Positions 9,558 to 22,906 of a stretch of DNA of 64,000 nt are shown piece by piece. Source of the stretch: Ectothiorhodosinus mongolicus. Lineage in GTDB: Bacteria; Pseudomonadota; Gammaproteobacteria; Ectothiorhodospirales; Ectothiorhodospiraceae. The translations under genes were made by a program, and so were the position numbers. How positions within the stretch are numbered: position 1 is the stretch's first letter; every line of letters begins with the position of its first letter. The DNA lies in NCBI RefSeq assembly GCF_022406875.1, contig NZ_CP023018.1, positions 1,623,914 to 1,687,913 on the forward strand, written 5' to 3'. A model generated the notes under the pieces. It made no database searches, was not told the DNA's origin, and saw only the letters and a list, made by a program, of their open reading frames with translations.

Positions 9558-10034
9558 CTATTGTACGGAGCGATAAATTCCGCGACCGACTTGTTCTATT
9601 TTTCCTTGACGCTTCAAATAGCCAAGGGTTTGATGCACGTTGGAGAATACCAGGCCCATAGCCTCTGCCTCAGCCTTTACAGCGCGGGCAGTGGTCTCTC
9701 CCACTGTGTTTATAATCTTCAAAATTGTATCCGTCTGCTGGCCTTTCGGGCTGCGACCGTTACTGCCGCTGTTACCGCTATTACCGCGTTTGCGCGGCGC
9801 CCGCCCGGTGAGGTCGGCAATGCGACTATCCAGACTGGCCAATTCAGCGTTTTGAGCCTGTTGAAGTTGTCTCAAAGCCTTTCGGTGGCTGTTTAGCAGG
9901 CTGCGCCGCTCGGCACGCAGAGCTTTAATTTCTCGCTGACGATCTGTACGCGTGCGCTCCCACTCTTCCTGTTCGCGACGTTTGGCCATTTCATAAAGTT
10001 CTTTTGCACTCAGCGTTTCTATTGGTTTATCCAT
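9558..10034 (-). CDS. Unknown protein with N-terminal coiled coil and C-terminal winged-helix-like domain
   Basis: A 158-residue protein I do not recognise by name. Residues 1-75 are highly charged and predicted helical or coiled-coil (many Arg, Glu, Gln). A Gly/Asn/Ser-rich linker (about 78-95) leads to a C-terminal segment (TILKIINTVGETTARAV... LGYLKRQGKIEQVGRGIY) that reads like a winged helix-turn-helix. This suggests a DNA-binding protein. A 15-bp inverted repeat, GACTAT-ACG-ATAGTC, lies 33 nt upstream of its start and could be its own operator (inference). Convergent with the kinase gene, 28 nt apart. Confidence 0.6.
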   Translation of the reverse strand: MDKPIETLSAKELYEMAKRREQEEWERTRTDRQREIKALRAERRSLLNSHRKALRQLQQAQNAELASLDSRIADLTGRAPRKRGNSGNSGSNGRSPKGQQTDTILKIINTVGETTARAVKAEAEAMGLVFSNVHQTLGYLKRQGKIEQVGRGIYRSVQ

Positions 10035-10066
10035 AACAACGTCCTTTTTTCTTAAAAATTTTTAAT

Positions 10067-10081
10067 GACTATACGATAGTC
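10067..10081. promoter_or_regulatory. Inverted repeat, possible operator
   Basis: GACTAT-ACG-ATAGTC is a perfect 6+6 inverted repeat in an A/T-rich intergenic region upstream of the minus-strand winged-helix gene. On the minus strand it overlaps a TTGACT hexamer, as expected for an operator on a promoter. No binding protein is known. Confidence 0.4.
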
Positions 10082-10238
10082 AAACTTTCCAGTTCAAGGG
10101 CCCACCATAATAATTCCCCTTTAAAAAACAAAAGACTAGGTTTGATATTCTTAAATAAACTGTACTTTCGGGGCGCTAAGATGCGTCGCGGGTTGTGACG
10201 CGCTATGATGTGAAGCTGTCGAAATGAGAGGACGAGTG

Positions 10239-10502
10239 ATGAAAAGTCGTTTCATGGCATGGCCAGCGAGACTTTTTGCTCTTGTGGTGGCCTCAGTTAA
10301 TCTCGCAGCGGCAGGGCCGCTCAGCGGTTTCTACGATTTTTTAGATACACAGCCGACGCCTGAGGCCTTTGAAGAGGCGTATCCACATATTTGGCTTATT
10401 CTGCCGGGCGATTTTCAAACCCGTGAGTTCTGCACGAATTCTTATCGCTTCTTCGCTGAACTGGATGATGCCGGGCGCATTGTCGGCGGAGATCTTGAAT
10501 AG
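10239..10502 (+). CDS. Small secreted hypothetical protein
   Basis: About 87 residues from the ATG at 10239, chosen because AGAGGA lies 9 nt upstream; an in-frame ATG at 10224 has no ribosome binding site. The N-terminus is a likely signal peptide: KSR, then a hydrophobic stretch FALVVASVNLAAA ending near an Ala-Ala-Gly cleavage site. The mature part is short, acidic and has a single Cys. I do not recognise a family. A strong terminator follows immediately. Confidence 0.55.
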   Translation: MKSRFMAWPARLFALVVASVNLAAAGPLSGFYDFLDTQPTPEAFEEAYPHIWLILPGDFQTREFCTNSYRFFAELDDAGRIVGGDLE

Positions 10503-20528: not shown

Positions 20529-20966
20529 CTAGGAGCGAGCTCGTGTGTTCAAAACTGCTTCCTCAAATGCTTTTCGTCTTTCCATTATCGACGCGGAGTA
20601 GCGGCCATTTCGAGGTGTTAGGGCAAGATAATGGGCTAAAATCAAATCAGCCCTCAACCTCTTGTATGTTCTCAGAAAGGGTGAGACATGCTGCAGGAGA
20701 TGAAACGCTTGCCGATTATAAATCGCATAAGTGTATCCAGGGGAATGTGCGGCACTATATGTGCGTTTGGTTGTGATTTTACCAGCAGCCAACGTCTCAA
20801 GAATATATTCCAGTAACGGACGCTCCGTGCTGCTGATCGAAACTGACAATTGGCGGTTTTCACCGCGGTGTTTCCGAACCAGCGTGATGGTGCCTTCACC
20901 GTCAATCACTCCCGCGATATAAGCGGCGTCTATTTTACTGAGCGTCATATTCATGATGGCAATCAT
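20529..20966 (-). CDS. Single-motif LAGLIDADG homing endonuclease
   Basis: A 145-residue protein with one LAGLIDADG motif (YIAGVIDGEGTITL; motif residues 17-25, acidic residue Glu24), then the expected strand region (QLSVSISSTERPLLEYI), a YAIYNRQAFHLLQHV segment and a basic C-terminal half. Single-motif members act as homodimers that cut near-palindromic sites of about 20 bp. The first ATG abuts the T-run of the tmRNA terminator, 40 nt beyond the tmRNA 3' end; no ribosome binding site is visible there, and the ATGs at codons 5 or 7 are alternatives. It is NOT inside the intron of the adjacent tmRNA gene. It is less G+C rich than its neighbours, suggesting transfer. Confidence 0.85.
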   Translation of the reverse strand: MIAIMNMTLSKIDAAYIAGVIDGEGTITLVRKHRGENRQLSVSISSTERPLLEYILETLAAGKITTKRTYSAAHSPGYTYAIYNRQAFHLLQHVSPFLRTYKRLRADLILAHYLALTPRNGRYSASIMERRKAFEEAVLNTRARS

Positions 20967-20997
20967 AAAAAAACCCTGGCCTTGTGAGCCAGGGTTT
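20967..20997 (-). terminator. Intrinsic terminator of the tmRNA gene
   Basis: A perfect 10-bp stem (AAACCCTGGC/GCCAGGGTTT, loop of 7) followed on the minus strand by seven T. It lies 9 nt past the tmRNA CCA end and directly before the first ATG of the endonuclease frame. Confidence 0.93.
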
Positions 20998-21005
20998 CCG
21001 ACGAA

Positions 21006-21635
21006 TGGTGGAGGCGGCGGGACAGCTGGTTCCCCATCTTTCGATGAGGGCTGGACTATACCTTCATCCTGTCGCCAGGATGCGGGGCGTGTTATCCGCA
21101 GCGATGATTGGCTGCGAATCCTAGTGCCGGCTCTGTGTTTTCACACTCAGCCGGTCTATGAGTCTCTACAGGGCAGGCCTGAGGTTAGCCCTCTTCCTAC
21201 CCCTCGGTGTTGCCGTGGCGGGTTACCCCCGCTTTAGGGTCCACCGATGTGAGCCCCGTTTTCACTTTACCCTTACGGGCAAAGGCGACCATTGTGTTAA
21301 TCGAACCCGCGTCCGAGAATCCTACGCCATCGGTACTACATGCTTAGTTCGTCTTTTCAGTTAACGCCTTGGTCTCCGACGAACAGGATACCGCAGCGCG
21401 AGCCCGATCAGTTTTAGCGGTTAAGACCCGGGCAGGTCCGCTCCGCGAGCTTGTATTAATGACCTCTGAGTGAAACCTACAAGCAAATCCCGTCAGAGGC
21501 TAACCGTTTCTTAGGCGGCTAGAGCGTAGTTGTCGTCGTTGGCAACTATAACGTAACAGCATTTTTTGCGAGGTAAGCTGTATCCTCGGCATGCACCTCA
21601 GGTTTCGCAACCCCCGTCGAAGCCAGGTCGCCCCC
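21006..21635 (-). ncRNA. ssrA: tmRNA (ssrA), interrupted by a group I intron
   Basis: Transfer-messenger RNA, which rescues stalled ribosomes and tags the nascent protein. The 5' end is GGGGGCGACCTGGCTTCGAC and the gene ends with encoded CCA. The tag frame at 21543-21511 reads ANDDNYALAA followed by TAA, a typical proteobacterial tag. The 5' GGGGGCG pairs with CGCCTCC before ACCA. The T-arm is split: GCGGGTTCGAT (exon 1) and TCCCGC (exon 2) are separated by 277 nt; joined they give a normal GCGGG-TTCGATT-CCCGC T-arm. Mature length without the intron is about 353 nt, normal for this group. Promoter and terminator are both visible. Confidence 0.95.
21023..21299 (-). mobile_element. Group I intron in the tmRNA T-loop
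   Basis: A 277-nt insertion. The upstream exon ends in U (GGTTCGAT) and the insertion ends in G (CCAGCTG), the group I splice-site rule. An internal guide GUCG, 11 nt into the intron, can pair with the last exon bases CGAU, placing a U-G wobble at the 5' splice site. The conserved S element AAGGTATAGTCC (21064-21053) and an R-like GTAGAGACTC (21169-21160) can form P7 (GACU/AGUC). There is no internal open frame on the intron strand. Splicing is inferred from these motifs and from the exact restoration of the T-arm. Confidence 0.9.
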
Positions 21636-21726: not shown

Positions 21727-22158
21727 GTGAAAATTGGGATCATGAAGACTCTAGGTGCTGCACTTGCCTCTCGGCGCGAACGCCAGACAAAGCACTGTAA
21801 TCAGTGTGGCAACCTATTTTTGGGTTTGAAGATATCGCGCTACTGCTCTGAGGCCTGTCGGCAGCGTGCTAAATACCACCGCTCCAAACAGGTGATGCGT
21901 CAAACACCTTTGTCGCGCACGCTAGGATTGAGCCGTGCCTATGACTGGAGCAACAAGCAAATTCCCGAGGAGGTTTTTCTGTTGCGCGTGCTGCAAGGCG
22001 TTGAACTGATCGATATCGCCAAATGTGTCCGAGTATACGGTGCAGATTGCATGCAGATAATTCTTGATCGCATAGATGACCCACTGACCCGCAACATCGC
22101 TGGCCGCAAGTTGCGTAATGCCATCGAAGCAATAGAGCATATTGATGCTGCGGCTTGA
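21727..22158 (+). CDS. Zinc-ribbon protein paired with AbiEii-type gene (putative antitoxin)
   Basis: A 143-residue protein from GTG 21727 (or ATG 21742). Residues 20-50 hold four Cys in a CNQCG ... YCSEACRQRAK arrangement, a zinc-ribbon-like knuckle followed by a basic stretch; the rest is mainly helical with no known motif. It overlaps the next gene by about 14 nt, the usual geometry of toxin-antitoxin pairs, and the partner is an AbiEii-like nucleotidyltransferase. An antitoxin role is therefore inferred from position, not homology: AbiEi antitoxins are winged-helix proteins and this is not obviously one. Divergent from ssrA with a 91-nt gap. Confidence 0.6.
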   Translation: MKIGIMKTLGAALASRRERQTKHCNQCGNLFLGLKISRYCSEACRQRAKYHRSKQVMRQTPLSRTLGLSRAYDWSNKQIPEEVFLLRVLQGVELIDIAKCVRVYGADCMQIILDRIDDPLTRNIAGRKLRNAIEAIEHIDAAA

Positions 22159-22906
22159 TGCTCTGCCCGAAGACACTCGGCGTGTATTTGGGTACTGTCG
22201 CACCCATAGTGCTCTAGAGTCATTAGGTTTAGCTCTTTTCGGTGGAACGGCCCTGTCGCTCTTGCTTGGGCATCGCCAGAGTGAAGACTTAGACTTTTTC
22301 AGCTTTGAATCCAGTCTACCGATTGATGGAATCAGTGCATTTCTCACATCCTGCCGCAAAGACAATATGGAGGTGCACAATATCCTCGATACTGTGCGAA
22401 TTTCTCAGGCGCGCATTAATGGCATTCGATTAGAAGATTACATTCAGGAATATCAGATCGATGGAGTGCGGGTCAGTTTTGCGGCCATGACTCGAGGCGG
22501 CGACTCGCGCCGCACGTATTTTGCGAATGCGCCCATGCTTTCGGGAACTCAGTCGGTATTCCAAATCCCTACGTTACAGACTTTATTTGAATCCAAGGCG
22601 CTGACACTCCGAGACCGTGTCACATCCAGAGATTTGTTCGATCTCATGGTTCTGATACGGGATCATGGCTGCACCATCGAACAGCTTTTGGACGCAATTG
22701 TTCGCATTGATCATATTGAATTGAGTCAGGCATCAGCAGTTCTGGAAATTCTGCTAGGTCATGTCCCGGTCGATGCCGATGACCCTGGATTTTATTCCAT
22801 TAGACTCAACACAAGCCTTGATGGCATTTATGCTTTTTTTAAAACGCAGATAGATGCCTACGAACAAGCTGTCGTGATTAGGGAGCTAGGTTCCAAGAGC
22901 GAATAA
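22145..22906 (+). CDS. AbiEii/AbiGii-type nucleotidyltransferase (toxin component)
   Basis: About 253 residues. The motif FGGTALSLLLGHRQSEDLDFFSFE is the hG[GS]-x9-DxD nucleotidyltransferase signature of the AbiEii/AbiGii family, whose known members are toxins of abortive-infection or toxin-antitoxin pairs that modify tRNA 3' ends. Further conserved pieces are LFESKALTLRDRVTSRDLFDLMVLI. Start ATG 22145 lies inside the upstream gene; a TTG at 22142 is the alternative. The sequence is less G+C rich than purL next door, suggesting transfer. Sitting beside a tmRNA gene, a frequent landing site for accessory DNA, fits that view. Confidence 0.82.
   Translation: MLRLDALPEDTRRVFGYCRTHSALESLGLALFGGTALSLLLGHRQSEDLDFFSFESSLPIDGISAFLTSCRKDNMEVHNILDTVRISQARINGIRLEDYIQEYQIDGVRVSFAAMTRGGDSRRTYFANAPMLSGTQSVFQIPTLQTLFESKALTLRDRVTSRDLFDLMVLIRDHGCTIEQLLDAIVRIDHIELSQASAVLEILLGHVPVDADDPGFYSIRLNTSLDGIYAFFKTQIDAYEQAVVIRELGSKSE

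Follow-up and report, generated by a model that had tools for sequence, protein, structure and literature searches.

The ssrA gene of Ectothiorhodosinus mongolicus is interrupted in its T-loop

The window, a stretch of 64,000 nucleotides from the chromosome of Ectothiorhodosinus mongolicus, contains on its minus strand a tmRNA gene (ssrA) with an insert in its T-arm, followed by a terminator and a gene for a LAGLIDADG protein. The features of ssrA are:

21635 (start) to 21006 (end), minus strand: ssrA, T-arm interrupted after T-loop U6
21300..21635, minus strand: ssrA 5' exon, 336 nt (Rfam RF00023, 165.6 bits; ARAGORN hit on the spliced sequence), holding the tRNA-like 5' part, tag frame, pseudoknots, 5' strand of the T-arm and T-loop to U6
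21511..21543, minus strand: tag reading frame ANDDNYALAA* (ARAGORN on the spliced sequence, positions 93-125)
21006..21022, minus strand: ssrA 3' exon TCCCGCCGCCTCCACCA (from the sequence)
20969..20999, minus strand: intrinsic terminator of ssrA, CCCTGGC...GCCAGGG plus T-run (scan, 13 pairs)

The Rfam tmRNA model matched ssrA with 165.6 bits (E 1.4e-65), but the 3' strand of the T-arm and the acceptor were lost; the alignment reaches GGGUUCGAUU and the remainder is unaligned. ARAGORN detected 0 genes in the unspliced sequence, and after removal of 277 nt a 353-nt tmRNA with the tag ANDDNYALAA and an intact T-arm. The insertion point is T-loop position 7, GGGTTCGAT^TCCCGC. The initial annotation of this DNA had described an ssrA gene whose T-loop is split by a group I intron of 277 nt, the removal of which would restore a normal T-arm and a 353-nt tmRNA; all features named in that description were found on the minus strand between 21006 and 21635, and the ARAGORN result on the spliced sequence agrees with it. 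A second intact ssrA, which had been raised as a possible counter-observation, was searched for in the closed 2.0-Mb genome and none was found, and smpB is present in the same genome. It follows, as far as the sequence goes, that tmRNA function would here depend on splicing. The intronless allele that had been anticipated in relatives was encountered in sister species of the genus, in which GGTTCGATTCCCGC lies at the same place adjoining purL.

ssrA and purL are close neighbours in the sister species. In the window they are separated by an AbiEii-type nucleotidyltransferase gene (PF08843, E 9e-15) and a small zinc-finger-like ORF that overlaps it (together 21727-22906, plus strand), and these two genes may form a toxin-antitoxin pair.

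The insert has a conserved group I intron core

The features of the insert are:

21023..21299, minus strand: group I intron, 277 nt, TAACAC...CAGCTG, subtype A (Rfam RF00028; covariation in 30 relatives)
21286..21289, minus strand: internal guide GUCG, forming P1 with exon CGAU via U.G (from the sequence)
21161..21164, minus strand: P7 5' strand GACU (R element), pairing with 21057-21054, invariant in 30 relatives
21053..21064, minus strand: S element AAGGTATAGTCC / AAGGUAUAGUCC, including the P7 3' strand (sequence and alignment)

The splice sites follow the group I rules, as the base at position -1 is a U that is paired to G in P1 and the terminal intron base is G. The insertion after U, the final G and the GUCG-CGAU pairing through a U-G wobble had all been noted before and are present in the sequence, and the S element AAGGTATAGTCC (21064-21053) has its R-like partner in GACT (21164-21161). 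A covariance search, suggested earlier as a check, recovered the group I core: the Rfam Intron_gpI model (RF00028) spans the entire insert, with E 4.6e-7 for a search of 1.8 kb and a score of 35.9 bits that lies under the gathering score of 50. Thirty related introns could be aligned into ten helices, P3, P7 and P8 among them. The 49 named pairs were formed in 98.8% of the cells of this alignment and 30 of the 49 were changed on both sides, compared to a pairing of ~43% when the partners were shifted by one column as a control. By sequence and covariation the insert in the ssrA T-loop is a group I intron, and it presumably splices itself. The related introns fall into two subtypes, A (that of the window) and B, which are ~50% identical and share the core and the insertion point. 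A similar hairpin (CCCCTCTCCCGCTTGCGGGAGAGGG) is inserted into one and the same peripheral loop of the L225 and L228 introns, resembling a small mobile repeat.

A LAGLIDADG endonuclease gene lies directly behind ssrA

The initial annotation was right about the intron and incomplete about the locus: it did not mention the homing endonuclease gene that follows ssrA, nor the apparent partnership of this gene with the intron. The features of the gene are:

20529..20966, minus strand: homing endonuclease gene of 145 codons with a single LAGLIDADG motif, located outside the intron (PF14528, E 2e-6)
20892..20921, minus strand: LAGLIDADG motif YIAGVIDGEG with the invariant catalytic-type E24 (alignment A2, 20 sequences)

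The gene is intact and is located directly behind the ssrA terminator, not within the intron. The window contains an ORF-less intron adjoining a free-standing endonuclease gene, which is one of the marks of a collaborative homing pair. The match to Pfam LAGLIDADG_3 (PF14528) is above the family cut-off, and E24 is invariant in the 20 aligned sequences. An AF2 model of the enzyme (pLDDT 91.7) has I-MsoI and I-CreI as its closest solved folds, with E 1.6e-8 and TM 0.72 for I-MsoI; going by this model, the protein is most likely a homodimeric endonuclease of the I-CreI/I-MsoI type. Such a homodimer would suit sites with partial two-fold symmetry, for instance the T-arm, and the target of the enzyme would most likely be the T-arm region of an intronless ssrA. 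The window enzyme may be ageing, since it has a long tree branch (0.83) and no ribosome-binding site is evident before its gene. Its best match among the PHROG phage families is phrog_5046 (E 1.7e-20), which is annotated as an HNH endonuclease; the protein itself is LAGLIDADG.

The enzyme gene and the T-loop intron co-occur

A protein search of genome contigs with the window enzyme as the sole query gave no match. With an alignment of five relatives, 22 genes were identified among 84,980 bacterial and archaeal genomes, in Methylophaga, Thioalkalivibrio, Sedimenticola, Thiohalobacter, Parahaliea, Seongchinamella, Pseudohalioglobus and other Gammaproteobacteria. The gene is located directly behind ssrA in 21 of these 22; the remaining one lies near a contig edge, where the flank is uninterpretable. 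In a sample of 369 Gammaproteobacteria the enzyme was present in 17 genomes (16 genera), again behind ssrA. As the two genome sets overlap partly, they combine to ~43 distinct loci; all of these close relatives but one, which is undeterminable, lie directly behind ssrA, and nearly all of those ssrA genes have the intron.

A T-loop intron was found in 15 of the 17 enzyme-bearing genomes of the sample versus five of the 352 others (p ~1e-20, kinship ignored), the five being a lower bound because the search pattern overlooks some introns. Two of these five (G338 and G195) retain remnants of the enzyme gene; the others are G118, G068 and G127. Nine genomes of the genus to which the window belongs lack the gene, and the ssrA genes examined among them are intact and have no intron. 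Where checked in same-genus genomes, purL adjoins ssrA as in the window, and the ssrA locus can therefore be regarded as orthologous within the genus.

Close pairs of intact enzymes have a dN/dS < 0.2. At other loci, among them those of G019, G021, G050, G092, G116, G221, G345, G352 and G365, the enzyme gene is broken by stops, frameshifts, deletions or insertions. Constrained pairs next to decayed copies are what a homing cycle predicts. G019 has two ssrA genes, L055 (C2) and L054 (C1), of which one has the intron and a broken endonuclease gene and one, on a 0.3-Mb contig, is divergent and intronless. In L057 a decayed endonuclease remnant with its flank is duplicated 8.4 kb apart (1426-2105 and 9821-10499, 300 nt identical) and adjoins an intronless ssrA.

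Intron and enzyme are separable, and some T-loops are recoded

One and the same enzyme family occurs together with both intron subtypes, A and B. The distance between enzymes correlates with the distance between ssrA genes (r 0.46), versus a partial r of 0.04 with intron distance when ssrA is accounted for; the enzyme and ssrA trees are poorly resolved. L079 and L080 have ssrA 5' exons that are 89% identical and introns that are 57% identical and belong to subtypes A and B, and in L072 and L073 the enzymes are 76% identical and the introns unlike. Inheritance of enzyme and intron as one unit was considered and is ruled out by the distances and by these sister loci. Taken together, the sequences suggest that intron and enzyme are partners that can be separated. 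A Lysobacterales MAG (L079) has an ssrA 89% identical to the one on the L080 contig, which is filed under Anaerolineae and is probably misbinned.

In two loci of Seongchinamella (L087 and L089) an intact enzyme gene accompanies an ssrA that has no intron and in which the T-loop TTCGATT is replaced by TTCGAGA. This recoded motif occurred in none of the 369 genomes of the class and in none of 20 genomes of one family. G050 and G116 have a normal T-loop with no intron, next to a decayed enzyme gene. Protection from the enzyme by the intron or the recoding would be expected to produce this pattern: an intact enzyme next to a recoded T-loop in L087 and L089, and a decayed enzyme next to a normal one in G050 and G116.

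Displaced ssrA 3' ends behind the enzyme gene

A second ssrA 3' end is located behind the enzyme gene in six loci (L074, L080, L082, L089, L223 and L236). In the first four of these there is nothing but the enzyme between the two 3' ends, and in L223 and L236 integrase-like island DNA follows the displaced end, so that the boundary of an ordinary island may play a part at these two loci. A displaced end is missing from most loci with the enzyme, and a search behind the enzyme gene of the window showed none. That the displaced end is the recipient's own was set as a prediction, and L074 and L082 agree with it: G100, an intronless genome without the enzyme, has a native ssrA 3' end with terminator and flank that matches the displaced ends of these two loci (79% over 89 nt, E 6e-15, and 87% over 53 nt, E 3e-12). 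The unit thus seems, judging from these matches, to carry a replacement ssrA 3' end. No sister genome with an empty locus turned up in the families of G081 and G103; a wider search around G103 did yield one. G081 (L236) keeps an intact enzyme next to a displaced GGGTTCGATTCCCGCC, and for that reason the T-loop alone cannot be the entire target site. A terminator of the CCCTG(A/G)C type follows ssrA in 16 of 32 enzyme-bearing loci versus 3 of the 48 loci without the enzyme (p 1e-5, with no correction for kinship).

Relatives of the enzyme at phage tmRNA genes

Several of the best matches in 2.9 million viral contigs are tied to tmRNA genes. In L093 (2857-3658) a LAGLIDADG gene fills the intervening segment of a permuted alpha-type tmRNA, directly after the CCA; the gene lies just before a permuted tmRNA in L094 and divergent from one in L092. 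In L099 (2900-3980, minus strand), L100 and L101 a relative of the enzyme is encoded antisense within the group I intron that interrupts the T-loop of a phage tmRNA, and in L103 and L104 the enzyme genes are convergent with the tmRNA. No link to tmRNA was found in the viral contigs L095-L098 and L102, nor in the next matches, L105-L119. Upstream of the phage tmRNA in L099-L101, at a distance of a few hundred bases, is a Pistol ribozyme. A recoded T-loop in the permuted tmRNA of L093 was considered and dropped, as the consensus T-loop of alpha-tmRNA is itself non-canonical.

A proposed model of tmRNA-specific collaborative homing

We propose, with a probability of roughly 0.72, that the enzyme and the intron take part in tmRNA-specific collaborative homing, in which the enzyme cuts unprotected ssrA genes, intron or recoding guards the host and repair transfers the unit. 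The co-occurrence of intron and enzyme, the displaced 3' ends at the T-arm and the recoded T-loops lend indirect support to the view that the enzyme would cut the intronless site and that the intron would block it. The intron, whose structure is observed, would have to splice for mature tmRNA to form. The LAGLIDADG enzyme would cut the T-arm region of an intronless ssrA and spare its own genome, where the target site would be disrupted by the intron or, in some species, by recoding of the T-loop. An unprotected ssrA that encounters donor DNA would be cut and then repaired on the donor template, and the repair would copy the intron, the replacement ssrA 3' end with its terminator and the gene of the enzyme. 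Behind that gene the recipient might retain its native 3' end in displaced form. The two partners would aid each other yet remain separable.

A wider reading, which we consider probable though with less assurance, is that these enzymes form a LAGLIDADG lineage specialised on the tmRNA genes of Gammaproteobacteria and phages. It would occupy several positions (behind the gene, within the T-loop intron and in the intervening segment of permuted tmRNA), bring its own 3' end and rely on at least three guards, namely either of two unlike intron subtypes or a recoded T-loop.

The alternative that keeps most weight, though we regard it as unlikely, is that the enzyme is cargo at the boundary of integrase-driven islands, with the displaced ends as attachment-site leftovers and the intron as an independent resident. 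ssrA is a classic integration site of islands (PMC11915505) and island-like DNA does follow the displaced end in L223 and L236, but at ~40 loci in many genera the enzyme gene comes next after the ssrA terminator with no integrase between, and the enzyme stands alone between the two 3' ends in L074, L080, L082 and L089, and co-occurs with the intron. Less likely still is that the LAGLIDADG protein is a maturase that has lost nuclease activity and aids splicing in trans. LAGLIDADG maturases are known and one (2ab5) was among the remote profile matches; against this, E24 is invariant, L087 and L089 combine intact enzyme genes with an intronless ssrA, and introns persist where the enzyme is absent or decayed (G118, G068, G127, G019, G021 and G345). 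That a standard tmRNA intron stands next to an unrelated homing endonuclease gene by chance would fit the low number of published intron-form tmRNAs with an endonuclease gene in the intron (36 of 883), but we hold it to be very improbable given the position beside ssrA in all interpretable relatives, the co-occurrence statistics and the phage relatives that are likewise found at tmRNA genes. Loss of tmRNA function in a pseudogene, to which the failure of ARAGORN on the unspliced gene might point, can practically be set aside, as the spliced form is a complete tmRNA with an intact tag, smpB is present and the splice rules and the intron core are conserved.

If the proposed pairing of intron and enzyme is true, it suggests how tmRNA introns, 96% of which are without an endonuclease gene, can keep spreading, with the enzyme outside the intron where it was not looked for. 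Collaborative homing, known from a protein gene of a phage, would then extend to a conserved RNA gene of bacteria, a single target would be guarded by either an intron or recoding, and the loci would offer a natural series (empty, paired, decaying and lost) for testing the homing cycle.

Comparison with known systems

Intron-form tmRNA genes with a group I intron at T-loop position 7 were reportedly described by Williams in 2002. T-loop tmRNA introns and collaborative homing are already known, and the part for which no published description was found is the enzyme gene behind the tmRNA; the search for a free-standing endonuclease gene in this position covered the open-licence literature. The statement in the initial annotation that T-loop introns in ssrA had been reported is borne out by 883 unique intron-form tmRNAs, most of them with the intron at position 7 (PMC11915505), and the intron of the window is itself one more of this set. 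It resembles them in the gene, the insertion after U6, the splice-site rules and a length similar to their mean of 293 bp (PMC11915505). The published endonuclease genes, 36 in number, lie inside the intron (P7.1 or P9), whereas the gene described here lies outside it, behind the ssrA terminator.

For collaborative homing we compare with the psbA intron of cyanophage S-PM2 and the free-standing F-CphI, as outlined in later accounts (Zeng et al., 2009, via PMC6083498 and PMC3984707). In that system a group I intron shields the genome from an adjoining free-standing endonuclease targeting the insertion site, and the same would hold here. The locus studied here differs in residing on a bacterial chromosome and in an RNA gene, in a LAGLIDADG rather than an Endo VII motif, and in the alternative of T-loop recoding and the replacement gene end that seems to be carried, while cleavage by the window enzyme is a prediction.

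The single motif, the length of ~145-165 residues and the fold (TM ~0.7) are shared with the homodimers I-MsoI and I-CreI, to which the identity is ~16-26%; the window enzyme differs in not being encoded in an rRNA intron. Mobile ORFs of fungal mitochondria replace gene 3' ends in Allomyces atp6 and in Glomus atp6, atp9, cox2 and nad3 (PMC3630166). They are alike in that a foreign gene end is brought together with an endonuclease gene and the native end is displaced behind it (PMC3630166), whereas the part replaced here would be the tRNA-like 3' end of an RNA gene in bacteria, usually in combination with an intron.
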